Part shown: positions 5,243 to 20,627 of the stretch, piece after piece
Numbering within the stretch: position 1 is the stretch's first letter
Layout of the letters: each line of letters begins with the position of its first letter
Origin: Amoebophrya sp. AT5.2
Taxonomy: Eukaryota; Sar; Dinophyceae; Syndiniales; Amoebophryaceae
Direction of reading: 5' to 3'
DNA length: 23,743 bases
NCBI GenBank assembly: GCA_005223375.1
Contig: RXOD01004342.1
Location: 1-23,743 of the forward strand
Notes under the pieces: model-generated
The model's database searches: none
Told to the model about the DNA's origin: nothing
Seen by the model: the letters and a program-made list of their open reading frames with translations, nothing else
Program-made: the position numbers and the translations under genes

Positions 5243-8200
5243 ATGGAACGCAAGCAGCGTTTTTTTGGGTTGTTTGCCTGTAACTGCGGACTGGAGCACG
5301 ATCTGGACGACCCTCTGCTGGAGTGTCCCGAAATCGACTTTGGGGACAATTTCGGCAACGAGGCGCGATTCGACGCCGGCGCCAAGGAGCGCGGCGGGGG
5401 GAGGAGCCAGAACTCTTACACAGGAACATCGGCTGGTCTACCGCTCGACCTGGACCTGGACGAGTTTGGGTTTTCACCGGACCCGGTGTTTCGCAGCGTC
5501 GGGCCCTTGCAGATTGGGCGCAGCCGACGCAGGGAGGAGGCTGCTTATTCCCCGGACGTGAAGGCGGCGGGCGAAAGCGGAGACAACTTCGATCGGTCCG
5601 GGGACAACTTCGAAAGACAATCAGATCTACTGCCACAAAAACTGCAACTCCGTTCGGAGCACGCGATTCGGATCCGCCCGCCGACGTTTGGGGTTCCGAT
5701 GCTCTCAAGCTCGGGCGCGCCTGCGCGGCCGCTCGGCTCGGAGGACTGCAATCAAGTGGAGGATCAAGTAGAGGACTGCCACCTCAGCTCCCGCGACAGC
5801 AGTCCGCATGTCGGGCCCGTTCACGGCGGCGATGGTCCGATGCCGAACAAGGGAGCAGACGTCTATTCCGACCATTCGGTAAACGATGGTCGTCAGGGGA
5901 GAACAGCGGCTCAGGCGGGAGCTACTCGTGAAATCCTCGGAAATGATCGCGCGAAAACGCCGGAGACCTCTGACGTCGTGCCATCATCAAGAGACGGTGG
6001 TCGCAGTGTGCAAAATAAGCTATCGCGGCAGGAAAACCCGCCGTCTTCGCCGGAGTCGAACGGGAGCAGTGTTGTAGGAACGGGGGGGTCGGGTGGTTCG
6101 TCGAAAGAAACGGGGGTGGGAGGCTCGTCCAAAGAGAGCCACTTCAAGCAGCTGTACAAGTGGGCCGCGGAACATTAAGAAGAGGTGGATGAACCCCTGT
6201 AGTAATCGCGGCATCCTCCTGCGACGGTGGTGGTCTTGTATGTAAGTAGTTGGTTCCTCTGGTAGCTGCTGTGGTCTGTGGTATGATCGATTTGTCGTGT
6301 GTGGGGCGATGGAGACTGTCGATTGTCCTGTATCGGTGTTTGGTCTGTGATATTTTGTCTGGTATTTCAATTGCTCAAATGCTGGGTCGCTGTCAGCGAG
6401 AGAACTAGCAAAGCGGTAGCAACAGGATGCAGCAAGAACCGACGGCGCCCAGAATCTTGATTGGTCTCGCATTTTGTCCTGTATTTCGTCGCCGATATAA
6501 TTCGGTTGTCGGCACTAGGCGAATCGTGTACCTGCAAGGAATGCAATGCCGCCGAGAATGGGTTCTTTTTCCTCACCCTTCTAAGAACGGTTGTCCGACG
6601 ATGAGGTCACCGGCAGTCCGAAGCCCGACCCTGTTCACGGCAGAGACCGCGACGAGCTGCTGGGACAGGTTGCCGATGTACTTCTGGACCCGGCGGGACC
6701 GAGTCCCATTGCGGGACCGAGTCCCATCCCGCGAACATCATCTGACCGCATGAAGCCGAGTGCGTCGAGTCCGCAGCATATGAATCAAATACTTGTTGAA
6801 CAAAGCGCAGGGAGGCAGCGCTCAACGTTGTCAACCTCCTCCGATTTCCCCCAGGCGTTGCCGCCGTTTCGGACGGGGTCGTCGCCTCCGCACAGCGTCG
6901 ACCCTGCAGGACCAGCCGCGGGTCCGACCGTCGGAGGAGAGCAGCAGACGGGAGAGCAGCTACAATACTATCCGGGGTCGCCGATTACATCAATTGTAGA
7001 GCAGCAAGAACAGGCTTTGAACAGCGGTCTGACGGGGATCACGCCTTATCGGCGCAGCGGAACGAACGCGGTCTCGAGGCGCCAGTCCATCCCGGTCGGG
7101 CGGACGCAGCCAATCTCCGGAAAGGTGTTTATTCGTCGCAAGAACTACTTCCACCAGGACGACAACAGTTTTAACAGGGGTGTGAGATGAGACCCATTTG
7201 TTGTTCCTAGAAACCTTAAGATCTGCAGGAGTGGGCGGGGAGCTATGCAGGCCGCCGCCGGTAGAAGTTGTGTTTGGGTGCTGTAGGGATCATTGGGCTG
7301 TCCGTGTCCGCGTCCGCCGCTTGTGTGGTCTTCTATTTGGCTCGTATTTGTTGACAAGAATTGGCCGGGTAGTTGGCCGATGTTGTATTTTGGAGGGCGA
7401 ATAGCTGTACAGGAAAGCAGCAGCGAGGCGCTTCGCTTTCCGGGTTGCATGATCTACCAGGAATGGATGCAGCGATTTGGGTCGTGAAGCCAGGAGCTGC
7501 AGCCTCCTTAAGGTAGTTAGTTGCAGCGCCGGGAGAACTACTACTTAACTCCCATGATCGATCGGAAATGGGTTTTTTCTCCCTCCCTCCAACCCTCGGG
7601 TGTCCGAGTACTTAGAAAATTGCAACACCTACCACATCAAGATCGACCCGGGTGTGGTGTCGTGTCTCCAGACGGAGGGGCAGGACTTGTATATCTCCTG
7701 CGACGGGCTGCTCGCCGTGGCCTCGATTCTGTGCAACCCGAAGAACCCGTGCGTGACGCGGTTGCACGTGCAGGCCCGGTACGAGACGCGCTCGAACCAG
7801 TACGTGTGCCTGATCCTGGAACAGATCCTGCACGCCAACCGCACGCTGTTAAGGGTTGAAAAAATTCAGGAGATGCTGGACCTCTTCGACGTTCAGGTCC
7901 AGGTCGAGGCTTGCCGTGTCTGGTTGTGGCTATCACAAGTGAATAGAGCACCTCTTTGCCACTTGTGGAAGATTTTTGCCACAGTGCAGAGGGAGGAGGT
8001 CTTAGGAGGTTTAGTAGGATTAGACTCCATAGCTGGTACGCCCCCATCGGGCCCATCGGAGAGGGCTGCGGCGTTCCACCTGATGATGGCGGTGTTGGCT
8101 CCCATCGCTGAGCATAGATTGCATGGTCATAGAAAGCTGTCTTCTCAGTCGGGTGCTGGACCTCTTCATTTTTTCAGGAGGTCGAAGAGGGCCAGCACCC

Positions 8201-10579
8201 TGCAATCGGTCGAAGAGGTCCAGCACCCTGCTGATAGCCTGAATTTTTTCATAGCCTCTAACGCTGGAGGTGCTGGACCTCTTCGACGTCGGGATCAACT
8301 GCGACGGGATGAACTACCTCAAGAACGGGCTGCAGTACCACCCCTCGGTGCGGCAGCTGTTGCTCGCGAGGAACGACCTGGGCCCGAAGGGCGCGAAGGT
8401 TCTGATCCGTGTGTGTGTGACCATGCCGCTGCTGGAAAAAGTGGACGTGCGGTTCTGCGAGGTCGGGGCCACGTACAGCTACGTCCTGCACCAGCTGAGC
8501 GCGAAGCACCCGAAAAACCCTGAAATCTTCACCGAAGGAAACACAGACACAGAAGAAATCTGGGGAGCAATCACGCACGGGTACTTAAAAATAATGATGC
8601 GAAAAAGCTACGACTGGGACGATTTATTCGGCTATGAGATTGCTGGATTGGCTCTACACGTTTCTTTGCGGTGTGGGGTTTCATTTATCGGACGAAGATA
8701 GTTTTCTCTACTCCGAAAAAATATATTACAGGCTGGGTCTGCTTTGGGCTCTCGTTTCCAGTATCTACATGACGGTCCGCGTTCGGCACAACCCTTCCCA
8801 CCAAGTCCTCGGCTGTCTCATCTACAGTTGTTGCTTGGTGCTTTTGTTCCTCTTCTCCACGCTGTTTCACTCCTTCTACCTGAAGGTCCGCACCGCCAAT
8901 TAGCGATCTGAGTTTAATGCATTTACTCAACTGGTGTTCCAAATAAGAACCGGACCGCGGCGGCATCTTTCCGCGGCCTCGGACCCGATTGCTTATGCTA
9001 GGCCTAGGCGCCGATGTGCCTATAAGGGAATAGGCTTATAGGCTACAGCTAGATAGCCAGAAGAGAGTCAGACCCCCATCCCTAAGCTTGCCCATTTCTT
9101 CTGGGTGCGGACTTCGTCTCCCCGATAGAGCCACTGTCGCGGCTGGCTCGTCTGACAGGTATGTCCTTTTCCACCTCCAGAAGATCTCATATCCAGAGCA
9201 GCGGATGTGATAATGTCCCTTAGCAAATGGCTAGAATCTTCCCGGAAGATGATCCGTGAATGGGGAACTGTTGAACATCGCTAGAAAATGCATTAAGCCC
9301 AATCGTTTCTAAGCCATTGTGTTCCAGATCCTGGACCACTGCGGGATCTTCCTCTTCATCGCGGCGTCGTACACGCCGGTGGTGATGTTGTCCGAGCTTT
9401 CGAAGGGCGACGCGATCTTCATGATGGTGGCGCAGTGGTGTTTGGCGCTGTTCGGCATGGTCGCGTTCATCATTGCGTTCTACTTCGAGACCTTCAAGCA
9501 GTACTACTCGCTGATAGAGCCCTTCGTGTGTTTGATGATGGGGTGGATGATCTAGGTCTGGGGGGCAGTGAAATTATAGAAGTTTGCCAATTGGCTGCTA
9601 ACGGTGGCAGTGATAGGATTTATAGGTGTAGAGGTAGACTGATATGATTCATAAGCATAAAGCGCGAGGCGATTTATGGGGTTTATTCCATAGCGGCGGT
9701 TTATTGGGGTACTTTCAATACGGTGGTAGTGCGCTGTGGCCGCCCGGCGCGAAGGGGTTCGGGGGCATTGCCGGAGAGACGCCCGCTACGGTGGCAGTAG
9801 GAGATGACAGCGAGATCGGACCTGTACCACTACTAGCATCCGACAGCCGTAGACTACTAGAAGTGATGACTGCCAATGGACCGTTAGCATAGCCATGGTC
9901 CTTTCATAGAATCGTGTGGCGCTACGAGTACACGGTGGGCTCCATGCCCGAGGACGTGGCGAGGCTGATCATGACGGGAGGGGGTTTGTATACCGCCGGC
10001 GTACCCTTCTTCCTCCTCGGCGACAAACGCTTCCCAATCCTGCACGTGGTCTGGCACCTATTCGTGCTGGCGGCGTCGGTACCTATTTATTAGTCCATCT
10101 TGTATATGTTGATTTTAATATTTGTGTCTAGAGTTTTGTACTTTCCAATGCAATGGCGATGGTTGCTTTTTTGACAGATCTGCCACTGGTTTGCGATAAT
10201 TTCGTATGCGGACTATGGGAAGCGGAAGTGGGAGCGGGACCACGGACCGGACCAGGACTACCAGGCCGAGCTGCTTGTCCAGCACTACTCGGAGCATTTC
10301 GATCGCCTCAAAGAATCCATCACCCTCCTCGTCACGGGGGTCGCCGGGCGGTCCATGTGGAACATGGCGATCGCTTCGTCGGCGAATGGTGCCGGAACTT
10401 CTGTGGTCCATGGACGTGCGAATACGAGTGCAAAGGCTTTGCCTTTCGGTTCTACTTCTACTTCCTCTGTTGATCACGAATCCGAGGACGAGATTCAAAT
10501 TCCGCCCGCGGCTGTTGTACCGGAGGTGAATGGGATTGGGAACGACCCGGTTCTCGGCGATCGCGGAGGAGAGCTGTAG
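5243..10579 (+). CDS. LRR protein fused to a PAQR/HlyIII seven-helix domain (8 exons)
   Basis: Proposed exons are 5243-6173, 6589-7181, 7609-7848, 8267-8580, 8732-8897, 9316-9552, 9914-10078 and 10178-10579. They total 3048 nt, or 1015 aa. Residues 1-508 are Ser/Gly/Pro-rich and probably disordered. Residues ~509-670 resemble ribonuclease-inhibitor-type LRRs (LEVLDLFDVGINCDG, VRQLLLARNDLGPKGAKVL). From ~683 a PAQR/HlyIII domain begins with an EEIWGAITHG start. It then shows S735-x3-H739, D755-H756 and the C-terminal pair H871-x3-H875, followed by H885. These match the family's membrane zinc site. PAQR proteins are integral membrane receptors or lipid hydrolases (ceramidase-like in the adiponectin receptors), but the substrate here is unknown. 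The ATG at 5243 is the first good start; upstream exons cannot be excluded. The joins at 6173/6589 and 7181/7609 are the least certain. The LRR exon has no Met, so it must continue from upstream. Confidence 0.75.
6174..6588 (+). mobile_element. Introner-type intron IE-1 (non-GT-AG)
   Basis: The intron is 415 nt. It is flanked by gaac on both sides (gcg-gaac at the left, gaac-gg at the right). The ends TTAAGAAGAGGTGGATGAA and the complement of the right end, TTAGAAGGGTGAGGAA, form an imperfect terminal inverted repeat. Removing the element and one target copy turns an in-frame stop (cat taa) into GCG GAA CGG TTG TCC and joins two open frames. No GT-AG register fits. In one register the ends read AT…AC, which is probably coincidental. 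Confidence 0.7.
7182..7608 (+). other. Intron of LRR-PAQR gene, GT-AG with weak inverted ends
   Basis: The donor is ggt|gtgagatg and the acceptor gtccgag|tac, phase 0, preceded by a strong pyrimidine tract (ttttttctccctccctcc). The ends share an inverted cccattt / aaatggg, and gggtg occurs at both edges, so it may be a canonicalised relative of the introners. Splicing at the gggtg repeat would shift the LRR frame, so I use GT-AG. An acceptor eight bases later (tacttag|aa) also fits, with a phase-1 donor. Confidence 0.5.
7849..8266 (+). mobile_element. Introner-type intron IE-2 (non-GT-AG), copy of IE-4
   Basis: The intron is 418 nt and flanked by a perfect 5-nt repeat, cgctg. Its ends are TTAAGGGTTGAAAAAATTCA and, at the right, …TTTTTTCATAGCCTCTAA. 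These form a terminal inverted repeat, with GAAAAAATTCAGG shared by both ends. Removal of the element plus one cgctg rejoins NRTL with EVLDLFDV in the LRR. It aligns along much of its length with 19897-20281, for example acaagtgaatag and ttgccac near 7934-7962 and 19952-19984. No register over the repeat gives GT-AG. Confidence 0.85.
8581..8731 (+). other. Intron of LRR-PAQR gene (GT-AG)
   Basis: The donor is cacgg|gtacttaaaa and the acceptor atatattacag|g, phase 2. Splicing rebuilds the PAQR N-terminal motif ITHG followed by the first helix LGLLWALVSSIYM. This junction is the main evidence that the LRR and PAQR regions form one protein. Confidence 0.7.
8898..9315 (+). mobile_element. Introner-type intron IE-3 (non-GT-AG)
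   Basis: The intron is 418 nt with a flanking repeat gcca(a/t). The left end is TTAGCGATCTGAGTTTAATG and the complement of the right end is TTAGAAACGATTGGGCTTAA. Both continue into TAATGCATTT, which gives a terminal inverted repeat of about 25 bp with small gaps. Removal gives VRTA-IVFQILDH. A GT-AG alternative (aag|gtccgc … ttccag|atc) is also in phase but drops eight residues, leaving the S-x3-H to Asp spacing of PAQR proteins too short. Confidence 0.8.
9553..9913 (+). mobile_element. Probable introner-type intron (non-GT-AG)
   Basis: The intron is 361 nt between ATG ATC and GTG TGG. Removal gives GWMI-VWRYEYTVG and keeps the family spacing between the GW and GGG-Y motifs. No phase-compatible GT-AG pair keeps these residues. 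The flanks tgatc and gaatc match at only three of five bases. Internal inverted segments are clear: gctaacggt at 9596-9604 pairs with accgttagc near 9880-9888. The exact ends are inferred. Confidence 0.55.
10079..10177 (+). other. Intron of LRR-PAQR gene (GT-AG)
   Basis: This 99-nt intron has donor gcgtcg|gtacct and acceptor ttttttgacag|atc, phase 0. It joins WHLFVLAAS to ICHWF, the last helix of the PAQR domain. Confidence 0.8.
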
Positions 10580-11151
10580 AGTGTAGACCGGATCATGCGC
10601 CGAAAAAAGGAGGCTACCCATATATACGAATTTTTTCAACCGACGACTCGGACCGATGGCTCTTTCAAGAAGCAGACTAACTAATATTCCGCGTTGGATC
10701 TATCAGATAGCTCCCTCCGTCGATGAAGACTATTCATCGGAAGAGGAGATGAGGTGAAGGAGAAACAAGGTCGTGATTCACTCGTCGGTCGTGGCCGGTC
10801 CCTGACGTTGTGTCCGCTCATCCGATAGCCGTGAAAATGAATGCTAATGCAACACTGTTTTTTTCTCCGTCGTCCACTGATCAATAGGATCCGTGAGGAA
10901 GAGGCAGAGGGCTGTCGATAAAGACTTAAAGCGCCGATGGTTTCTCTTCCGCATTTTACCAGAATTGGCAGCAAGAAAGTGTGAGCTATAAATATACTCA
11001 TCCTGTTTATCCGGCGCTTACGAACACTGGACGTCGATATCCTATCAGGTATAGTACTGTGAGTTCGCATTTTCTTCTAAACGCATCGAACAATTACAAG
11101 CGACAGCGCATATAGTCGCCGATGGTTTTTGATTTCGCGCATTAAAATCAA
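10580..11151. other. Intergenic region, no gene recognised
   Basis: The region lies between the PAQR stop and the next ATG. It is AT-richer than the neighbouring exons. A cgccgatggttt motif occurs twice, near 10931 and 11116. I found no supportable coding, RNA or promoter element. Confidence 0.4.
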
Positions 11152-14100
11152 ATGGCCTCGATTGAGGATTTTCTGGAGTCGTTGCGGTTCGATCTGCGGC
11201 GGGACATTGACCAGCAACACTGCCAGATCTTCGACTCTCGCGGCAAGAAATTTTGCACGCGGCCCGATGACTGGAACCCAGAGTTGTGGCAGGTGCTCGC
11301 CGAGCCCTGCCTGTACGAAAGCCGCTGGAATGCCGCCTGGGAACAGCAGGTGCCGTACTGCGTTAGTTGCGAAAAGCAGGCGGGGAGCGACCACCTGATG
11401 TCGGGGGGGCACCGGAGAAAGGTCGCGTTTTATCGCGAACAATTGCGGCAGGAGTATCTGCAGGCGATCACCACCAACCGCATCCCGCCACCCACGGACG
11501 GCCTCAACTGGCGCGATTGCTGCGGCTGTGTCGTCCCGCCCGACGACCCGCGGGGTACTTATTTACTGGCTTTTTCATCTCGCGAGCAAAGTTTATACTA
11601 ATACTCGCCGAGTATGTTTGTACTCGACTTACAAAAGTTTCGTCATCTTCGAATATACTGGTGCCATGAACTCGGGAAGTAGGCAAGTAGAAGCAGCGAT
11701 AGTTTTAGCTATTTGGTACTGGCCTGATGAAAATGAAAGGTATGCCGCCGCACGCGCCGGATCCGAATTTCGTGGCGGCATCCGACAGTTCGGGGCGCGC
11801 GGCGGGAAGGCAGGCCGACGGATCCGACAGACCCGGCAACGGCCCGACAGACGACGACATCGACCAAATGCCGGAGGCGCAGCTGAGGCAGTTGCGGCCG
11901 ATCGATTGCCACGGGCGCGAGGTCCCGCGGGAGCACTACGAGTGGAAGGGGGTGCTGGACTGCGGCTACGTGCGAGAGCTGTACCGCAACCCCCAGTACT
12001 ACGAAGTGTTCGAGTGCGACGGCTGGGCCGCGCTGCGCTGCCGTTTGTGCACCAGCGCGCGGATGATCGACACCACCCACACTCCGGAAAGCAGGAAGCA
12101 CGTGAATAGGACCGGAGGCAGTAGTACGTTTAACACGTTTCCCAGCGCTGGTGGCGGTGGTCAGCAGCTAAGAAAGCACGTATGCTATGAGGAATATGCT
12201 ATGATAGTTTATGGGGGCAGGCGCGGGCGCATTCATGGGGGCCTGTAGTTTTGAGACTAGTCACTAGTGCAGCGGGGCTAGAAAATTGAAAACACCGGCA
12301 GAGGATCAATCCGGCGCGGACTTGGACAAGACGAGCTTTTTTCAAGTCCGCGTCGAATTGGTCACCCGCCCGGGCAGCTAGACGCTGGGGCACGAAGAAA
12401 ATCGCGGGTCTGCCGCGTAGCTCACTGTATTACCCCAGTTAAGTTGGTGACCGAAGCAGTACAACGAGTTCGCGACTGAAAGGCCACAATAACGGACACA
12501 CGAACGAGGGGGACAAACGACACACCTGAATCTGGAAAAAGCCGCAAGGTCTGGCACGCCCTTCAGGGGCCGTGCCGTGCAGTCTTGTCCTTGTGTCGTG
12601 TCATGCTGTGCGTACCCGAAGAAAAAAGTCCTACAGTGAGCTACGCGGCAGACCCGCGTCGAATTGTTCCCCCGCCGGGGCTAGAGGCTGGGGCACGAAG
12701 AAAATCGCGGGTCTGCCGCGTAGGTCACTGTATTACCCCAGTTAAGTTGGTGACCGAAGCAGTACAACGAGTTCGCGACTGAAAGGCCACAATAACGGAC
12801 ACACGAACGAGGGGGACAAACGACACACCTGAATCTGGAAAAAGCCGCAAGGTCTGGCACGCCCTTCAGGGGCCGTGCCGTGCAGTCTTGTCCTTGTGTC
12901 GTGTCATGCTGTGCGTACCCGAAGAAAAAAGTCCTACAGTGAGCTACGCGGCAGACCCGCGTCGAATTGTTCCCCCGCCGGGGCTAGAGGCTGGGGCACG
13001 AAGAAAATCGCGGGTCTGCCGCGTAGGTCACTGTAGTAGTTCGGTGTAGTAGCAGTAGCTGTCCACTGTCGGTGATTTTTCCATACTGAAAGCGGTGTCG
13101 CAAACGGTGCCCGGCGAATGGCAGCTCGAGCAACTCGACCAAGTCAGCATCGATACGGCGAAAAAGTCGCTGCCGCGCCCGTTGCTCCCAGGGCAGATAC
13201 GAGAGGGCGTGCACGTGCCGAAGGGTTTTCAGTACTGGGGCAACATGGAGCGGCAAAGCCACGAAACCGGGGAAAACAACGACTCTACCTTCCCCCTTGC
13301 AGTAGACCCGTCAGAGGTGCGTGGGGGTGAGCGTTGGGGCAGGGCTGCAGTTTCGTCGTCGAGCTCTTCTTCTAGCTCTTCAAGAGGTCCTCGTTCTCGA
13401 GTGGGAGGGCCGACACTGCTGGAACAAGCTACTTCGGGAGAAAATTATGCCGCACAAGAAAGCACCGGCGCGCCGCCCTTCCCAGGCTATGCGTACATAG
13501 GTGGTGGGCCATGCACTGCGTCGGCAAGACTGCCGACGTCCCCAGCGCCCAGACCTCTCGACGCCCGCACGATGCCGCCTCCCGATATCCACATGCCGAC
13601 AGCTGCCGCCAGATTACCGGGCGGCGTCTGCCCGCCAGCTACAGCTCGCGAAAGTGCCTCAGCTACAGCTACAGCTCCCGATAAAAGGCTACAGGACGCG
13701 GCGTGTTACCTAGTGCAACTTCAAAAAGAGATGGCGAAGCTGCGCGAGGAGCTAGGCCAAGCGTATACGGAGCTGGATGAAAACGACATGCAGCTGTACG
13801 AAAAAGACAAATTGCTGGAACAAAAGGACAGACTGCTGGAAGAAAAGGACAAGCAGCTGTACGAAACAGACAAATTGCTGGAAGGAAAGGACAAATTGCT
13901 GGAAGGAAAGGACATACTGCTGGAAGAAAAGAGCTACCGCCTGGAGCAGTGTCAGAGGCTCCTGTCTGCCACACGAGGCGAAGCGCGTCGGCCTGAGGAA
14001 GCTTATCCCAGCCCAGATCGGCGGACCGCTCTGACGGCAGGCGGCAGCGGCAGCGGCTCCTCGTGGCCCCCTGGAGGCGGTCCGTCGTCTTGCGCAGCAG

Positions 14101-14159
14101 CCGGCAGGGCGAATCTTCGGAATGAATCCGCGCGGGGAGTAGAATCCACCTGGGAGTAG
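11152..14159 (+). CDS. Cys/His-module protein with C-terminal coiled coil (3 exons)
   Basis: Exons are 11152-11554, 11740-12120 and 13093-14159, all GT-AG and in phase, giving 616 aa. It starts at ATG in MASIEDFLESLRFDLRRD. Two copies of a ~65-70-residue module are visible, one per exon. Each has an Asp-x-x-Gly start, Trp/Tyr-rich middle, CxxC and two spaced His: YCVSCEKQAGSDHLMSGGH in exon 1, and LRCRLCTSARMIDTTH followed by SRKH in exon 2. This suggests zinc binding, but the CxxC-to-His spacing is shorter than in standard C2H2 fingers. Exon 3 is low-complexity (poly-Ser), then has a heptad-like LLEEKDK/LYEKDK repeat at ~13780-13940, a strong predicted coiled coil. The role is unknown; dimerisation through the coil is an inference. 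Confidence 0.7.
12121..13092 (+). other. Long GT-AG intron hosting a tandem repeat array
   Basis: This 972-nt intron is the longest of the confident introns. The donor is ggca|gtagtacg and the acceptor is tactgaaag|cg, phase 1, giving RTGGTVSQTVPGE. Most of it is the tandem array described separately. Confidence 0.6.
12349..13034. repeat. ~2.3-copy tandem repeat (period 303 bp) of a TIR-bounded element
   Basis: The unit repeats with a period of 303 bp; for example taccccagtt occurs at 12431 and 12734. Within it, a 25-bp arm beginning cgcgggtctgccgcgtag (12403-12427, 12706-12730, 13009-13033) pairs with its inverse (12634-12658, 12937-12961). The segments 12403-12658 and 12706-12961 therefore look like 256-bp elements with 25-bp terminal inverted repeats, the first perfect and the second with one mismatch. 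They are separated by a 47-bp spacer. Confidence 0.85.
13780..13940 (+). repeat. 21-nt coding repeat specifying coiled-coil heptads
   Basis: Imperfect 21-nt units (ctgctggaagaaaaggacaa type) encode seven-residue LLEEKDK, LYETDK and LLEGKDK repeats inside exon 3. Unit number is likely to vary by slippage. Confidence 0.75.
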
Positions 14160-14865
14160 ATTCAAAAATCGTTTTTCCGGAAATCGGCTGGAAGTTCTTG
14201 GTGGATAGCATCACTTTATATCAGAACAATCAGATGGTGAGCACACTGATAGAAGCGCGGCTCCCTTCTGCCAGCGAATGTAAGATGGCCGCGCACCCAC
14301 TTTGAATGACTATGGGAAGAGCGCGGGCCGGAGTAAAAAAAGCATGCTTGAGGAGTATTGATAGTGAGACACTTTTCCCGAGTAAGTACCTCACAGGAAG
14401 GAAAAGGGCGTATACCGCCGCACGATTAACGTCATCTAGTACCTCGATTATCAAAAATCTTATGGACGTCAAGACTTCCCAGGGCAGTGGTGAACTGCGC
14501 GTGTTCGTGTTCATCATGATAGCCACGGAACAATCTCGGTTGATCGTGGAGTCTCAGATCGTGATAAGTAGTCACAGGCCCGTGTACTAGTCACACGCCC
14601 GTGTACTAATCACAGACCCTGACGAAGATCCTTCCCCGCTTCGGGGTCTCTACCTATTGCCTCCAGTGCCGCCTCGTGGTTGCGGATCGCCAGTCTATTA
14701 GTAGACAAGAAGCATAGCTGGAAGTACTCTTGTATCTACAGCTGTAGGAGGACATCCGTCGAGAGAAAGCTGCTGCTTCTCGACAGCTTTCAGATACTTT
14801 TTATAGCTACCCGAGGGGCTGTTTCGCGACTGACCGATCGATTGTTCCTGCACTCCGCGAGAAGA
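14160..14865. other. Intergenic region with short tandem repeat
   Basis: Near 14571-14619 a 19-bp unit (gtcac-a/c-ggcccgtgtacta type) occurs twice, plus a partial third copy. An ATG-started 94-aa frame at 14306-14590 has no recognisable domain and I do not call it. The frame of the next gene is open upstream to 14680, so its start could be earlier than 14866. Confidence 0.4.
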
Positions 14866-16631
14866 ATGGCGGAAGCTCCGACGGCGTCTTTGTTTCTCGC
14901 GCAACGCGTTGCCGCAGCGATGAACGAGCGGGTGGATCCGAAGACGGCTTTTCTGAATGGCTCGTCGGTTTTTGGACGCATCAACGTGGTTGGGATGCTG
15001 ATTTGCGCGGTGACCATTTTCTCCTACCGCATCGCGGTGCGACTTTTCCCGAAGAAACGTCTCAACCTGCTCCTCTTCGTCAAGTGCTGCATCGGGTTCG
15101 CGATCGGAAACTTGTTTTTGCACGGCGTCTCGGAACAATCGGCGGCCATGATGAACTCCGGAACGAACGAATCGCCGTCGGACAAAGAGGCGTGGATCTT
15201 TTTGGGGAACTTGTTCTTTTTGGTGCTGGCGGGCGGCCCCGACTGCGTGGTGATCACACTGGCCTACGCCTGGCTCGCGGGATCCTGCTCCTTCCTCCTG
15301 CTCTCCGGCGTCCCCGAAAGCCTCCTCTACCTGAACCCGGACGCGCACGCGCCCTGGGTGCGACACCTGGCCGTGTTTACTCAGACATTCTATTCACTCC
15401 CAGAGCGATGGGGCAGCGACGCGAGAGCTCAGAGCGATCGATATATAAATAGAACAAAGAGCTATAATAGCAGCGACATGCCGCATAGGATAGTAGCTGC
15501 GTCTCTAACGGTGGGCATATATATGTCGGGCGTTTTTGAGGCGCAGCGGCGTGTTTTCTCCACAACCTCCTCACTTGGCTCCGATGGATACGGGCTCCTG
15601 GCTTCTGGCTCGCTCCAGCGATAGTCGCATCTGGGCTCGCTTTTCGCTCTCTCTGAGTCATCAGGACCATCGACATATCATGGGCTCCTGCATGGGCTAC
15701 TAACTACGATCGAAAAATAAGTTAGTACTTTTGAAGGTAAGCAGCTCTCGTGCGGTGGCCTCGGTGATAGTGCTCGGGTTGGCGTTCGTGCTGACGCTGG
15801 TATTCATCGGGGTGCGGGGGTGTTTCTCCAACTGGGAACTGGTCACGTTGCCCCCGCTGGCCGCCACCGCCCTGCTCGCGAGCGTTGCGGACGCGCCCGC
15901 TTTCGTCGTCGCAGGTAAGTGATTCGGACGATTTTCGTTTACTTATTCATTGTTTGGTGTTGATGTTGAATTGATGTCGCTGCAGCACGGTGCGATCGGA
16001 TCGATGCGGATTCCTAGCCAGCAGATTCGTGCTGATCAACCAGGAGTTTGATCTCCTGTCTCCACAACTGTGCTAAACAGGAGACCCAACTGTTGACGAT
16101 CAAAACAAAAAATCATTGAACAGGAGATCCGGTCTCGGGCTCGCTGGACGTGTGGCCGGTGGCGAGCGTCCCGCTGCTCTGGTCCGGGGTCTACGTCTGC
16201 GGCGTGCTGCTCCACTGCCTCTCGCAATCCAAGACCACCCAGCGACGCATTAACGTGGACGATCCCTACGGTATTTAAAATTGTATCCAGCTTTTTTGAT
16301 TCCCCACCAGTATCTCCGATTGGTGTTGGTCATATCCATGCTCCTGCCAGGATCATCTTCCTCGAGTTCCGGATTTACTAGAGTCACCAGTTTAAGATTG
16401 AGGCCGTTGCTTTTCATCGCTTTTGATCGCACGCAGGATCGATAGATACCCCATGAATCCCGGATCGAGAGAGAAGCGGACATACTTTTTCCCCATCGAT
16501 CAGGTGGGCAGAACGACTTGATGCGTCGGTTATTGACCGACACCGACGTGACGCGCAACGACATGTTCGAGTCGCGGTTTCCGATTGTGCAGGGCATGGG
16601 AAAGGGCCAGGCGGACCCTGCCGATCCTTAA
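14866..16631 (+). CDS. Polytopic membrane protein of unknown family (4 exons)
   Basis: Exons are 14866-15372, 15737-15914, 16124-16270 and 16504-16631. All are GT-AG and in phase, and the total is 960 nt, or 319 aa. The start MAEAPTASLF was chosen as the ATG nearest the first hydrophobic helix. Hydrophobic segments include INVVGMLICAVTIFSY, LNLLLFVKCCIGFAIGNLF, IFLGNLFFLVLAGGP with VVITLAYAWLAGSCSFLLL, AVASVIVLGLAFVLTLVFI, and VASVPLLWSGVYVCGVLL, so about six to seven spans. The C-terminal tail (TQRRINVDDPYGGGQNDLMRR…) is polar. I do not recognise the family. Exon 2 has a textbook donor, gcag|gtaagt. The exon 3 acceptor could be either aacag|ga or three bases later; both keep the frame. Confidence 0.65.
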
Positions 16632-16897
16632 GGCTTGGATTCATTCATATCTGCTGGCTACGTGATCCGATCCAAAAAAACCCCTGCGGCATCGATTGGA
16701 GCCTGCTTTTTCCTTTCCTAAATGAATCTCGTCGGTTGATCCGATGTCCACTGCTTTTCCTGCTGCCTGGGGCCTCGCGTCCTAAAAAGCTGCTGCTTCT
16801 CATCCTGCTCCTGTCCCTCCGCTTTCTAATCGCTGCGATCATCTAAGTCAGATATAAATAGAGCCATAGCTTCTTCTAACTTCCCTTCCGCGCCGCG

Positions 16898-17059
16898 ATG
16901 AACCAGCCGCCGCAACCCTCGGCGAGTGGCGGCATCCTGGAGCGTGCCGAGCGCGAGACCAACGGCGTGCTCACGGAGAACGAGCAGAAGATCCTCGACA
17001 TCTGCAGGCACGACGAGGAGCAGCGAAACCGCATCCTATTCGGCGGCGGACTGTGGTGA
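16898..17059 (+). CDS. Small ORF or first exon of a larger gene
   Basis: MNQPPQPSASGGILERAERE opens a 53-aa frame with the GC-rich codon use of the other exons. It is preceded by a pyrimidine tract (cttcttctaacttcccttcc). It ends either at TGA (17057-17059) or at a strong donor, ctgtg|gtgagt, at 17055/17056. With the donor, an acceptor at gcaatgag|c near 17957 would be in phase with the exon that follows, but that site lacks a good pyrimidine tract. The sequence contains a charged helix (LTENEQKILDICRHDEEQRN). No family recognised. Confidence 0.4.
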   Translation: MNQPPQPSASGGILERAERETNGVLTENEQKILDICRHDEEQRNRILFGGGLW

Positions 17060-17949
17060 GTTGTAGAGACGTTCGCACTTACTAACTTCTTGCCGAACGT
17101 CTTTGAAGAGCAACGGCGTGCTCACGGAGAACGGTATCTTCAAGCGATGAGATTGATGACAAGTAATACTTTCTTCGACACAAGAACAAGATCTGCAGGT
17201 AAATAAATAATAGTTCTACGACACAAGAAGACATGCAGTGAGCTGCGTTTGGCTTTGGACTGCCTTGCATGGCCAGGCCATTCCGTCAAAGGAGGCTACG
17301 CATACCAGTATCCATAACAGCATCGGGAGACGATAGCTAGAAGCAAGTAGTAAGAAAGTACTTGCTATTAGACCGTGGACAGAATCCTTGCTCAATCGAT
17401 AGCGGTCGACCCAGAAGACCCATCGGAAAAACGTCCTTCGGGCCACTGCGGAGTGATCAATGGATGTGAAGAAATTTTTCGAGAATAAAACCATAGCGAC
17501 GGAATCAATCCCCCACGCGACGGAATCAATCCCACAGCGGTGTACCCCTGTGCGTCATAGCGCTCCGCGTCAAGGCTTCTACATGTCTTCGAACTATTCG
17601 TAGTATTCGTGTCCGTCGGATCCTTAGAGTTCGAATTTGATTGCGCCGCTTTTTTTTTGCAAGCTCTCGTGCATGATAGCCCATTGTGCTTGTTCTTTGC
17701 ACTCCGATGATCATTTCGTGCTGTCCTGATCTTCGCGTGAGTCGATCAAGGTTCTCGCGTGGCTACTGACCAGAGGCGCAGGCGTAGGATCGATAGTACG
17801 TGCTAGATAACGTTGAAGGGTCCCAACTACCCAGAAGCTGATGAGCAGTTGGTTGCAGTTGATCATTCTGTGATAAAGGGCTGATCGGTAGTGGTCGTTG
17901 TGTCTCCTATTTATCAAGACTCGGTTTTTTCACTCCGGACACGCGCGCA
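17060..17949. other. Gap or intron with decayed copies of the upstream exon
   Basis: At 17111-17133 a caacggcgtgctcacggaga block repeats exon sequence from 16963. Pieces resembling the exon's agatc…atctgcagg follow near 17190 and 17225. A 9-bp inverted repeat (agacgttcg / cgaacgtct) lies at 17066-17103. A ~20-bp direct repeat with core gcgacggaatcaatccc occurs at 17496 and 17517. No complete gene is seen. Confidence 0.5.
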
Positions 17950-18660
17950 ATGAGCCTCGTGAAGGAGATAAAGCAGCGCGCCTCGGGTTCGGGGCGGGGC
18001 GGCGGGAGGCACAGGCAGCAACATCGGAACGCGCCGCAAACGACAACCAAGGCTGCGGAGGGAGAACTGGCTGCACCTGCTTCGCCTGCGGAACGAACGG
18101 CGGCCAACGGCGGCGATTATAACACCGATCGGACCAGTTCTGCGAACGGCCATGCAGCTGTGCCAAACGGTGCCAAGAGTAACAGCAGCGCAATTGTTCC
18201 GCCTGCGTTAGTACCTGGACACGAGCCTGTGTTTCAAACCAGCAAGGACAGCAGTGTGGGGGATGCCGATGCGGGGGGCCGCGACGAAAGCGAGGAAGAA
18301 GGGGTGGTGTCGCTTTCTTCACCGCCGGGGCGAGGTGGAGGTGACCATGTACTAGGTGACCATGGCCTCGGGCGAGGTGACCATGGACGATCCGATCGCC
18401 GAGGCCACCTAGTACATCATCAAAAGCGCGCGGCGCCGGAACGAGAGGGTTCGTGCTCGAAGAGCCGCGTGATCGGGTCCAGTTGTGAGCGGAGTACGGT
18501 TTCCAGTCCCTCCACCGCCGATTCGCTGGTGAAAACTTTGAAAAAGCAGGTGTTCACAAGTCTGATCTTACAGCGATTCGATGAAAATAATCTCTTTCGC
18601 CTCCTTCGCATAGTAGGGGGGGCGCAGCGCCCTGATCACGACAGTAGGGTAGATCCATGA
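17950..18660 (+). CDS. Disordered N-terminal exon, perhaps of the downstream carrier gene
   Basis: The frame starts MSLVKEIKQRASGSGRGGGR and is rich in Gly, Ala, Ser, Asn and acidic stretches (DESEEEGV) to about 18340. Past that, composition changes and an inverted repeat at 18346-18418 suggests an intron begins, so the real exon probably ends near 18340-18350. A donor at gaccat|gtactagg is phase 0 and would fit an acceptor at gaatag|atg before 18834. That would make this the N-terminus of the carrier, but the junction is not proven. Alternatively it is a separate small gene. No domain is recognised. Confidence 0.4.
   Translation: MSLVKEIKQRASGSGRGGGRHRQQHRNAPQTTTKAAEGELAAPASPAERTAANGGDYNTDRTSSANGHAAVPNGAKSNSSAIVPPALVPGHEPVFQTSKDSSVGDADAGGRDESEEEGVVSLSSPPGRGGGDHVLGDHGLGRGDHGRSDRRGHLVHHQKRAAPEREGSCSKSRVIGSSCERSTVSSPSTADSLVKTLKKQVFTSLILQRFDENNLFRLLRIVGGAQRPDHDSRVDP
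18346..18418. repeat. Inverted repeat (hairpin) in probable intron
   Basis: atgtactaggtg…ggcctcgg on the left pairs with ccgaggcc…acctagtacat on the right. A further ggtgaccatgg repeat lies in between. The hairpin falls inside an open frame but interrupts its composition, so I read it as the start of an intron. Confidence 0.6.
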
Positions 18661-18833
18661 GGTAAAATCGCAGGAGTTTTGTTGAACCTGTAGGATCGGT
18701 TCAAAAAAACGGGGGCAGTCAGTTGTACCCGCAGGCTTTATTTCGCCGCAGGTCTTTTTAGAGGCAGCTGATCTGAAAGCGGACGCAGACCCCCTCAGAA
18801 AGGAAAAAAGCCGGGCGAAGTAGGTGCGAATAG

Positions 18834-20627
18834 ATGATTCATTCCACTTTTCTAAACTGCGGGGTGGTTGTGGCGGAGGTGGCGACGTATCCGCTGGAGA
18901 CGATCAAGCTTATGCAGCAGGTTCGCGGCGGCTCTGCGTTGAGCATTTTCATCCAGATTTTGAAAACGCACGGCGTGCGCGGCTTCCTGCACGGCGCCAC
19001 GGCGAGGATCACGCAAACGGTCGCGACCAACGTGGGCTTCTTCATCTGGCAGGCGATCTTGTCGCAGGAGGACGGGTCGTGGGTGAGGAAGCTAATGCTG
19101 AACATGCTCGCACAACAAATCAACCGCATCCTAACCATGCCTAGGAGCCCACAGATTTGGATTTTTCCAGCCGTTGAATAATCGACGATGATCTTCTTCA
19201 CCTACTGCGAAGCGAAGCTATCGGCATCCTGGAAATAGTATAGCTAGCTATTGTCAGGATCGCGGAAGGAGACAGACCTGCACCGAGGTCTGAGACCCGC
19301 AAAGCCTATCGCCCTACTAGGGCGACTGCGCATCGATTTAGTCCATGATATTAGCCCAGCTAGATTGGGGAGGATCTGCAATCCGGTATTCGAAAAACGG
19401 CTTTTTTCTCCCAATCCTTCCTCATTCTCGCTGGGCTTTTGTTCTGCTTGTGTCTTCGCCTTCGGAAATAGAGGTACAACTGTGCATAAAATTCTCGCAC
19501 CATAACCGCAGTTCATATGTACAGTCGAGGCTGGAGGTCTTCCCCGCTCCTCTCAATCATTGCGCTGGAGGTTGTGGCGAACATCAACCAGGCGAATCCG
19601 GACAGTGGCGGCGCGCTGCAGGTCATTCACACCATCTTACAGAACGAGGGGCTTGGGGGCTTCTGGAAGGGCCTGGGAATCTCGCTGATTCTGTCGTTGA
19701 ATCCCGCGCTGATGTTCACGTTGGTGGACAAAATCACTGCGATTTGTAAGGCGGTGATGAAGAAGTCCGCCATCTCTGCCGGCGAAATGTTCCAGATATC
19801 CGCCTTCGCGAAAATGATCGCCACGCTGCTCACCTACCCCCTGATCCGCACGAAAACGATCATGCAGACACAGTCCACTACTTCTCTTGCCTCGGGTTAA
19901 GGGTTGAAAGAAGTCAGGTTCTGGCCCAGGTGTAGGTTTGCCGTGTCTACTGGGTCACAAGTGAATAGAACACCTCCTTGCCACGGCTCGCGGGAGATTG
20001 ATTGCCCACCTCCCTGCAGGGACGAGATCTAGGATCGGCAGTAGGATGCGACTCCGATTGTTACGCCCCCACGGCCCACGAAAAGGCTGCGTCGCTCCAT
20101 GATCTGTGACGTGTTGGCTCCTGCCTGAGCAAATTGCAGCCATAGGAAGCTGCCGGCTACCCTTCTTAGTCGGGTATCGCTGCGTGATGACCATCACTGA
20201 TCGGAAGACGACAGATGGGACTTGCCAAGGGCTAAGCCTAAACCTGAAGCACGACCTGGGTTTTTTCAACCTCTAATCGGGGGTGTTCGGCGTTTTGATT
20301 CAGCTTTACCGGAACGAGGGTGTAAGAGGGATGTACCAGGGCGTGTGGGTGCTGAGCTACAAGACCGTGCTGTTCAACGCGCTGATGATGGCGGTGAAAG
20401 AGCGCATGACAAGGGTGTACATGGACTACCTGGTGGACAGTCGCCGCACCGCCTATTTGTCAGGAGAAACGCGAACCGAGCCGCAGTATGGTAGTACCTC
20501 GCAAGGAGGTGATGACGCGCGAACCGATCTTTTGAACCGGTCCCGCGATTCCCGGAACCAACACGAGCTGCCCTTCGAAGTCACCTCGCCAGCCGCAAAC
20601 CCGCAAGACGAAGGCACGCAGAGCCAG
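18834..20627 (+). CDS. Mitochondrial carrier family (SLC25-type) transporter (3 exons)
   Basis: Exons are 18834-19141, 19564-19896 and 20282-20627, totalling 987 nt. Three carrier repeats are present. Repeat 1 has Y-P20-LETIK25, the classic P-x-[DE]-x-x-[KR] signature. Repeat 2 is P103-LEVVA, created only by the proposed splice, with the basic residue lost. Repeat 3 is P195-LIRTK200, with the acidic residue lost. The pattern PL-x-VV in repeat 2 recalls peroxisomal nucleotide/CoA carriers (PMP34/PXN type), but that is a loose resemblance. Carriers exchange small metabolites across mitochondrial or peroxisomal membranes. The tail after residue ~270 is polar. Both introns are non-canonical. The ATG at 18834 leaves a short N-terminus; upstream coding from 17950 is possible. 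Exon 3 ends at a good donor, agccag|gtacga, in phase with the next gene. Confidence 0.8.
19142..19563 (+). mobile_element. Probable introner-type intron (non-GT-AG)
   Basis: The intron is 422 nt, the same size class as IE-1 to IE-3. The exon ends ATG CC and the next begins G CTG GAG, rebuilding the conserved proline of carrier repeat 2 (TMPLEVV). GGAGC near the left end pairs with GCTCC near the right end, followed inward by ccagcc / ggctgg. The flanks catgcc and cattgc resemble a diverged target repeat. Exact limits are uncertain by a few bases. Confidence 0.55.
19897..20281 (+). mobile_element. Introner-type intron IE-4 (non-GT-AG), copy of IE-2
   Basis: The intron is 385 nt with a perfect 5-nt flanking repeat, tcggg. 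The ends TTAAGGGTTGAAAGAA and …GGGTTTTTTCAACCTCTAA form a terminal inverted repeat with ggttgaaa in both. Removing the element and one target copy gives GCC TCG GGG GTG TTC, so carrier repeat 3 continues as ASGVFGVLIQLYRNEG. It shares extended similarity with IE-2, including gttaagggttgaaa, ttgccgtgtct, acaagtgaatag, tacgccccca and gtgttggctcc. Confidence 0.88.

Follow-up and report, generated by a model that had tools for sequence, protein, structure and literature searches.

The closest described systems are the introners of Amoebophrya A25 and A120. According to the available sections of the report on these genomes (PMC7789003), they are repeated introns without GT-AG borders, with inverted repeats of 8-20 nt at both ends, direct repeats of 3-5 nt at the borders and no internal transposase. 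In A25, these repeats begin with TTA followed by two purines, and the loss of U1 has been reported for both A25 and A120 in the accessible text. Across eukaryotes, introners carry DNA-transposon-like repeats and duplications, and the mRNA length is unchanged in most families (Gozashti et al. 2022, PMC9860276, in the parts available). Their splice sites are either carried or recruited, GC and GA being rare 5' sites. The non-canonical introns of diplonemids and tunicates, as presented in the accessible parts of PMC12621601 and PMC13326754, resemble the elements described below in breaking the GT-AG rule.

The window analyzed here is a stretch of 23,743 nt from Amoebophrya sp. AT5.2 (contig RXOD01004342.1). 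The original prediction placed two homologous non-GT-AG introns in it, A and B, in unrelated genes and with terminal inverted repeats and perfect 5-nt target duplications, and all of this holds. Element A (413 nt, positions 7849-8261 of the forward strand, sense to its gene) starts with the repeat TTAAGGGTTGAAAAAATTCAGG (7849-7870) and ends with CCTGAATTTTTTCATAGCCTCTAA (8238-8261). Its two arms pair, element positions 9-22 with 390-403, and the duplication cgctg is found at 7844-7848 and, identically, at 8262-8266. Element B (380 nt, 19897-20276, forward strand) interrupts a mitochondrial-carrier gene; its arms lie at 19897-19918 and 20255-20276, the latter reading CCTGGGTTTTTTCAACCTCTAA, between exact copies of tcggg at 19892-19896 and 20277-20281. 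The two elements, both family-1 introners, have both ends and a core in common. Their local alignment scores 142, against a mean of 19.1 (sd 2.2, maximum 28) in 500 dinucleotide shuffles and 43 for the best match to A among the window stretches outside B. No register of A or B permits GT-AG.

Taken from one window, the pattern is weak; certainty comes from the copies across the genome. When the window is scanned de novo for exact 5-nt duplications with inverted repeats, B is recovered and A, with an indel in its 3' arm, is missed. With 14-nt arms, the window gives one match and five shuffles give 2, 2, 0, 1 and 2; with 20-nt arms, it gives two, and the shuffles 1, 0, 0, 1 and 0. In the 50.7-Mb assembly of the window, at least 42 stretches match the family of A and B. 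Searched with at most one mismatch, the end pattern TTAAGGGTTGAAA occurs 206 times, against 22 for the reversed pattern. A scan anchored on an exact 5-nt duplication, TTAAGGG and CCTCTAA yields 61 matches, in loci of which most had been retrieved for their 5' end, against 0, 0, 0 and 0 for four control pattern pairs.

The resolved set comprises 89 candidate copies with lengths of about 270-465 nt. The duplication matches at 5/5 bases in 57 copies, 4/5 in 22, 3/5 in five and 2/5 in five, thus at four or five bases in 79 of the 89, the choice of ends favoring a match. Some of the ten rows below 4/5 are doubtful (L032, with 900 nt, L038 plus and L059 minus); L060, with a duplication of 3/5, belongs to the corrected set, and L068 gives rise to two rows of family 2 and a further row of uncertain assignment. 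The members are homologous and repeated across many unrelated genes, with a median pairwise identity of 73% (53 aligned copies of 340-420 nt without exon pieces). Instead of the single mobile family active in this window that had been suggested, the family is genome-wide, and A and B are distant relatives within it.

Terminal inverted repeats, a duplication of fixed length and the lack of an internal transposase are found together here, as in a non-autonomous transposon of the MITE type. A transposase inside the elements is ruled out, as lengths of 271-465 nt leave no room for one. As for an autonomous partner with the same ends, searches covering MULE and DDE_Tnp_4 transposases gave 0 matches each. 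The border repeats, non-GT-AG ends, inverted repeats and repetition of an Amoebophrya-type introner are all present. The predicted likeness to Amoebophrya introners is supported, and the features common with A25 and A120 (PMC7789003, available sections) are the repeats, the non-GT-AG borders, the border duplication, the absence of an internal transposase and, for A25, the TTA-purine start (TTAAG and TTAGA here). The present family differs in coming from another genome and in its 5-nt duplication and measured arm asymmetry. It belongs to a known class, and what is new is the copies of exon sequence inside its members, of which the sections of PMC7789003 consulted make no mention.

The host is a dinoflagellate, as indicated by 50 spliced-leader matches, 18 of them exact (control 0). 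The nearest named protein match is from Amphidinium, and none of the matches listed is named Amoebophrya. The U6 snRNA was found; U1 and U2 were both missed by the screen, so the lack of a U1 match carries no weight and implies no likeness to the U1 loss of A25 and A120. The 22-nt end pattern has no match in viral contigs, and an 18-nt core word (L117) matches there by chance, with no surrounding element.

Coding-confident flanks are present in 42 of the 78 testable copies, and all 42 elements are sense to their gene. Removal of the element and one duplication copy keeps the frame in 41 of them, L050 being the exception. The 36 copies that are not confident include seven that are sense but out of frame, nine mixed and one antisense on both sides. 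Among the ten rows with a duplication below 4/5, four are coding-confident, three in frame and one shifted. In eight of nine joined proteins, picked by eye from 37 rows, a Pfam match spans the junction. The joined ribosomal S15 protein aligns 80 residues on 80 profile positions, with no gap at the junction. The junction of MCCB, also gapless, interrupts the codon for K in VANDATVKGG, a segment that is invariant in the query and eight homologs chosen from 120 listed. For the joined Vps53 piece, no homologs were found at E 0.001.

In the window itself, the restored frame is backed by codon bias in both genes (L001 for A, L042 for B). The predicted restoration of a domain stands for B, where a Mito_carr match in the joined flanks contains the junction, but not for A, where the sole Pfam match of the joined piece, LRR_6, lies 3' of it. 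The PAQR-type (HlyIII) match in a later exon of the gene proposed as LRR-PAQR reaches 20 bits, under the curated cut-off of 26.2 bits. If A were retained, the frame of the exon would meet no stop (from stop to stop, it spans 321 aa), but the 418 nt would shift the downstream frame.

Ten of the 89 copies, A included, contain duplicates, 16-40 nt long, of the exon next to them, counted as at least 16 nt of exon sequence taken from within 100 nt. Such pieces occur in 1 of 7812 control pairs, a number that grows to 96 when the threshold is loosened to 12 nt. At an alignment score of at least 16, in 84 copies, seven pieces are direct from the right exon, three inverted right, one direct left and one inverted left, each class being found in 0 of 2073 controls. 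Pieces of the downstream exon lie mostly just within the upstream inverted repeat: six of the seven direct right-exon pieces are at element positions 22-78, as computed before the set was corrected to 89 rows, and the seventh is near 63-92.

B has no exon piece. In A, four pieces match the downstream exon (source at 8267-8289): a direct 19-nt exact copy of 8271-8289 just inside the 5' repeat (7874-7892), a direct 16-nt exact copy (8152-8167) and, on the minus strand, an inverted copy with at most two mismatches in 19 (8180-8198) and an inverted 19-nt exact copy (8209-8227). The original prediction was silent on these pieces. A common LRR word was considered as their source and dismissed, as the 19-mer (at most two mismatches) is restricted in the window to the adjacent exon and the interior of A. 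A shorter 12-mer of this word, with at most two mismatches, is present elsewhere too. In L034, an inverted piece extends across the 3' tip of the element itself and across the duplication. In L033, where three exon copies were spotted by eye and which is outside the ten of 89, exon, duplication and 5' tip are repeated. Both include an element tip and the duplication, so the template that was copied still had the element at its site. No description of exon pieces inside introners was found in the literature covered, mostly without subscription journals and preprints and partly in excerpt.

We consider it likely that A and B are MITE-like introner elements that are precisely removed and that the exon copies are scars of templated repair. 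The elements would be short non-autonomous DNA transposons, inserted by a transposase supplied in trans with duplication of 5 nt of target. The transcript would lose the element and one duplication copy, leaving the protein unchanged, with removal guided by the strand-specific ends TTAAGGG...CCTCTAA and the pairing of these ends as a possible aid. The exon copies, present in roughly one in nine of the resolved elements, would be templated insertions: the element is cut at its site, repair starts copying it back from an intact sister, and the nascent strand switches onto the opposite broken flank. This could proceed either as abortive gap repair or by theta-type end joining, and both repeats and intron function would remain intact. 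Abortive gap repair was reportedly the subject of work by Rubin and Levy in 1997. Repair by polymerase theta duplicates brief stretches of DNA close to the break, and the exon pieces are alike in this. Templated insertions by polymerase theta are the subject of PMC5068794 and PMC2895639. In Ac/Ds and PIF/Harbinger, as described in the available text of PMC2213677, the ends are kept and the interior is deleted or rearranged after interrupted repair of the excision gap; here, in contrast, introns are involved, and the filling sequence derives from the neighboring exon, usually that of the far flank.

More tentatively, and with less than even confidence, these introns may be still-active cut-and-paste transposons, cut at the DNA level. 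The host gene would then withstand the cutting, as interrupted repair restores an intact-ended intron and fills in pieces of the neighboring exon. The interiors would thus be constantly overwritten with exon sequence from nearby, and the spliceosome, or another activity ignoring GT-AG, would read only the two ends, on one strand. The exon pieces could also have arisen when replication forks switched templates at the hairpin-forming repeats, without any cutting by a transposase, an origin that we find possible but rather doubtful. Switching at replication would leave similar pieces, and most of them originate beyond the base of the hairpin, in sequence that a polymerase skipping the hairpin would also copy. 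However, four of the ten scarred copies are short (284, 284, 320 and 330 nt), as interrupted gap repair predicts; the other six measure 374-446 nt.

None of the 57 copies with an exact duplication permits GT-AG by its sequence alone, while one permits GC-AG and two AT-AC. This bears out the earlier claim that no GT-AG register exists and differs from the introners of PMC9860276, as far as its accessible parts describe them. GT-AG at or near the ends, as in a canonical U2-type introner, was not found. Conventional GT-AG splicing from displaced sites, such as from a GT at element position 7 (TTAAGG/GTTGAA) to a downstream AG, with the duplication irrelevant to splicing, is very unlikely. G7 is present in 80 of 81 rows and T8 in 76 of 81, the 5' end being part of the search pattern, and a T-run at the 3' end resembles a pyrimidine tract. 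However, with GT at 7 or 8 and the first AG past the T-run, 18 of 40 copies stay in frame and 22 are shifted, and a stop follows within about 30 nt in 19 of the 40. No AG occupies a fixed position at the 3' end, and the conserved junctions are gapless when the element and one duplication are removed.

The arms are asymmetric in a fixed manner, TTAAGGG versus TTAGAGG. Arm composition was taken from 81 rows, of which L060 and L082 were wrongly bounded, and the 5' arm had served to find the copies. Arms pair slightly better with their own partner than when swapped (18.36/22 vs. 17.84/22; 0 of 2000 permutations, relatedness not controlled). The suggestion that splicing recognizes the paired ends is, thus, only partly upheld: a hairpin is nearly strand-symmetric, yet the 42 confident copies are all sense and the arms asymmetric, so the end sequences themselves are probably read, and pairing would be at most a help.

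The family, its ends, the duplication, the sense placement, the frame continuity, the gapless junctions and the lack of GT-AG are read directly from genomic DNA; removal would occur at the RNA level. Excision at the DNA level from an expressed genome copy, as for ciliate IESs, leaving one duplication, is very unlikely. It would fit the inverted repeats and duplications, the precision of removal and the indications of on-site cutting, but the elements are still present in the assembly, and dinoflagellates are not known to keep a germline nucleus apart from a somatic one. RNA-seq-supported introns of the same build, given in the available sections of Farhat 2021 (PMC7789003), also argue against it.

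A function of the exon copies, maintained by selection because they pair with the exon and aid splicing, is highly improbable. The inverted copies in A are able to pair with it, and the fold of A is far superior to those of its shuffles (z -5.66, a level reached by 0 of 100). However, most pieces are direct and thus incapable of pairing with the exon, 79 of the 89 elements have none at 16 nt, and B, without any, folds close to the level of its shuffles (z -1.16, with 15 of 100 equally good). That the elements are simple MITE insertions which have turned genes into pseudogenes is scarcely credible: with the element retained, 56 of 61 rows have no reading frame that exceeds 28 codons both before and after the upstream border, but the coding signal continues in one frame past the removed element in 41 of the 42 confident copies, and some of the interrupted proteins are conserved (MCCB, S15).

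These findings bear on the bulk origin of introns and on the recognition of non-GT-AG introns, for which this genome offers a clean natural data set, with dozens of copies, defined borders, one orientation and some junctions in conserved proteins. If true, the scars with exon copies would show directly, at the sequence level, that introners undergo cutting at their sites in addition to being copied in, and would offer a way to seek such cutting in Amoebophrya and other lineages.

Elements A (7849-8261) and B (19897-20276), both on the forward strand, are flanked by exact 5-nt repeats, cgctg and tcggg respectively. Both open with TTAAGGGTTGAAA and close with CCTCTAA. Their homology, an original prediction, is borne out by local alignment, with a score of 142 against at most 28 in 500 shuffles. 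As was also predicted, neither element has GT-AG at its ends in any register. Elsewhere in the window, inverted repeats of 27-33 nt cluster at 12403-13041, and one of 39 nt, with arms 30 nt apart, lies at 22070-22177.

The assembly holding the window comprises 50.7 Mb in 2759 contigs. A DNA search of this genome with A gave 44 candidates, of which 40 were scored, and at least 42 matching stretches, in which at least two copies are split into two listed pieces. The 13-nt 5' end, with at most one mismatch, occurs at 206 places vs. 22 for the reversed pattern. Loci L001-L090 and L097-L116 yielded 90 candidate rows, of which 89 remained after one boundary was corrected and one row dropped. The flanking duplication matches at 5/5 bases in 57 rows, 4/5 in 22, 3/5 in five and 2/5 in five, counts that are biased upward because ends were chosen in favour of matching duplications. 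A scan run over every locus plus the window, anchored on an exact 5-nt repeat with TTAAGGG and CCTCTAA (each with at most one mismatch), is therefore the cleaner test. It gave 61 matches vs. none in each of four control pattern pairs. As most loci had been fetched by their 5' end, the scan says less about that end than about the duplication and the 3' end.

Family 1, that of A and B, accounts for 55 of these matches, family 2 for three (L060 and L068 twice) and a third family for two (L059, L074); L112 looks like a family-1 variant. All six matches outside the family-1 count carry the same outer ends within one mismatch, plus a 5-nt duplication. Among 53 aligned copies, the median pairwise identity is 73% and the top pair reaches 95%. 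The family-2 end (TTAAGGGGAGGATCAACCCATTTT, at most three mismatches) occurs at 136 genome places (control, 0), and since 18 of these are exact, family 2 looks younger. Many of the 136 places, judged by eye, are near contig ends, as would be expected if the assembly had broken at recent, almost identical copies. Locus L068 holds three introners of two families within ~1.6 kb (715-1060, 1349-1776 and 1950-2312), with a possible fourth at 235-633.

The host is a dinoflagellate, as indicated by matches to the dinoflagellate spliced-leader sequence (at most two mismatches; 50 genome places, 18 exact; control, 0) and by the B protein, whose best and sole named relative among eight is from Amphidinium carterae. 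The type of intron suggests that the host is related to Amoebophrya. The leader matches are dispersed over the genome and could be either leader genes or remnants of mRNA reinsertion. Two U6 snRNA matches are present (L091, L092).

Codon bias, trained with the tested locus left out and requiring sufficient flank length, was scored for 78 of the 79 copies with at least 4/5 duplication bases. Both flanks are confidently coding in 42, in every case on the element's own strand, and removal of the element and one duplication keeps the frame in 41 of them, L050 being the exception. The 36 weak cases divide into 26 with sense coding on both sides (19 in frame, seven out), nine mixed and one antisense on both sides. 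Phase is uneven in the 41 in-frame copies (20, 16 and 5), and a C stands two bases 5' of the duplication in 61% of the 57 exact-duplication copies. For nine joined proteins, picked by eye as conserved-looking among 37 rows, Pfam matches span the junction in eight; the L040 match is far under the cut-off, and L034 has no Pfam match. The joined mitochondrial carrier of B provides a ninth such match. In the ribosomal S15 gene (L011), the match covers 80 residues on 80 profile positions, and in the MCCB gene (L021), the junction lies within the K codon of VANDATVKGG, a stretch that is identical in the query and in eight homologs picked by us among 120 listed.

In the 57 exact-duplication copies, GT-AG is possible in none, GC-AG in one and AT-AC in two. 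Splicing at shifted sites, with the donor at a GT around position 7 and the acceptor at whichever AG comes first past the T-run, is unlikely: over 40 copies, it keeps the frame in 18 and breaks it in 22. The original prediction that the paired ends may be what is recognized needs amending. The arms (terminal inverted repeats) do pair, scoring slightly higher as native pairs than as swapped ones, and the ends are paired in folds of both A and B. However, pairing is near-symmetric, whereas placement is one-directional; Micromonas and fungal introner-type elements likewise lie only along transcription, according to a passage in a review (PMC3443670). The arms also show a fixed difference at positions 4-5, where the 5' arm has A in 80/81 and G in 81/81 rows and the complement of the 3' arm has G in 75/81 and A in 78/81; the search pattern included the 5' arm, and two of the 81 rows were wrongly bounded. 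From these asymmetries, we infer that the ends are probably read as sequence.

Element A contains four full or partial copies of the downstream-exon word GTGCTGGACCTCTTCGACG, two direct and two inverted; a 19-mer of this word occurs in the window only inside A and in the exon. Exact matches of at least 16 nt to exon within 100 nt, a threshold chosen post hoc on inspected data, were found in 10/89 copies (A, L015, L020, L034, L043, L046, L052, L055, L060 and L116) vs. 1/7812 control pairings of an element with the flanks of another locus. At 14 and 12 nt, the copies remain 10/89, vs. 17/7812 and 96/7812 controls. B has no exon piece of at least 16 nt. Pieces in L055 and L043 carry a few base differences relative to the exon, so these are not fresh assembly errors.

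A mismatch-tolerant test (84 copies, 70 nt of flank, the element's outermost 20 nt excluded) recovered seven direct and three inverted right-exon pieces and one direct and one inverted left-exon piece (controls, 0/2073 each). All seven direct right-exon pieces are on the 5'-repeat side, six at element positions 22-78 and the seventh (L060, boundary corrected) near 63-92, and of the two left-exon pieces, one is 20 nt and the other 30 nt from the 3' end. The pieces thus come mostly from the far flank, A's later pieces being exceptions. In L034, the inverted piece continues without a break into the 3' tip of that element and its duplication; in L033, outside the ten, the left exon, duplication and 5' tip are repeated within the element. 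From about 1501, L033 shows a partial core duplication, with the left exon three times, once inverted.

In the favoured reading of these pieces, the element would be cut and partially copied back from an intact sister, and the nascent strand would switch onto the resected opposite end; such cutting, copying and switching would account for the position of the pieces, their mostly direct orientation and their far-flank source. Fork template switching at the hairpin is a live rival explanation. Abortive gap repair is described for other DNA transposons (PMC2213677, in part); no report for introners was found in the literature searched.

According to sections of Farhat et al. 2021 (PMC7789003), Amoebophrya A25 and A120 have RNA-seq-supported introns without GT-AG, with inverted repeats, those of A25 starting with TTA and two purines, and with 3-5-nt direct repeats. 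In another Amoebophrya, introns are mostly GT-AG, as stated in part of PMC12005148, so the non-GT-AG trait is patchy. The elements described here share with the A25 and A120 introners every feature open to a sequence test; they are therefore of an already known introner type, and the exon copies inside them are the one new observation.
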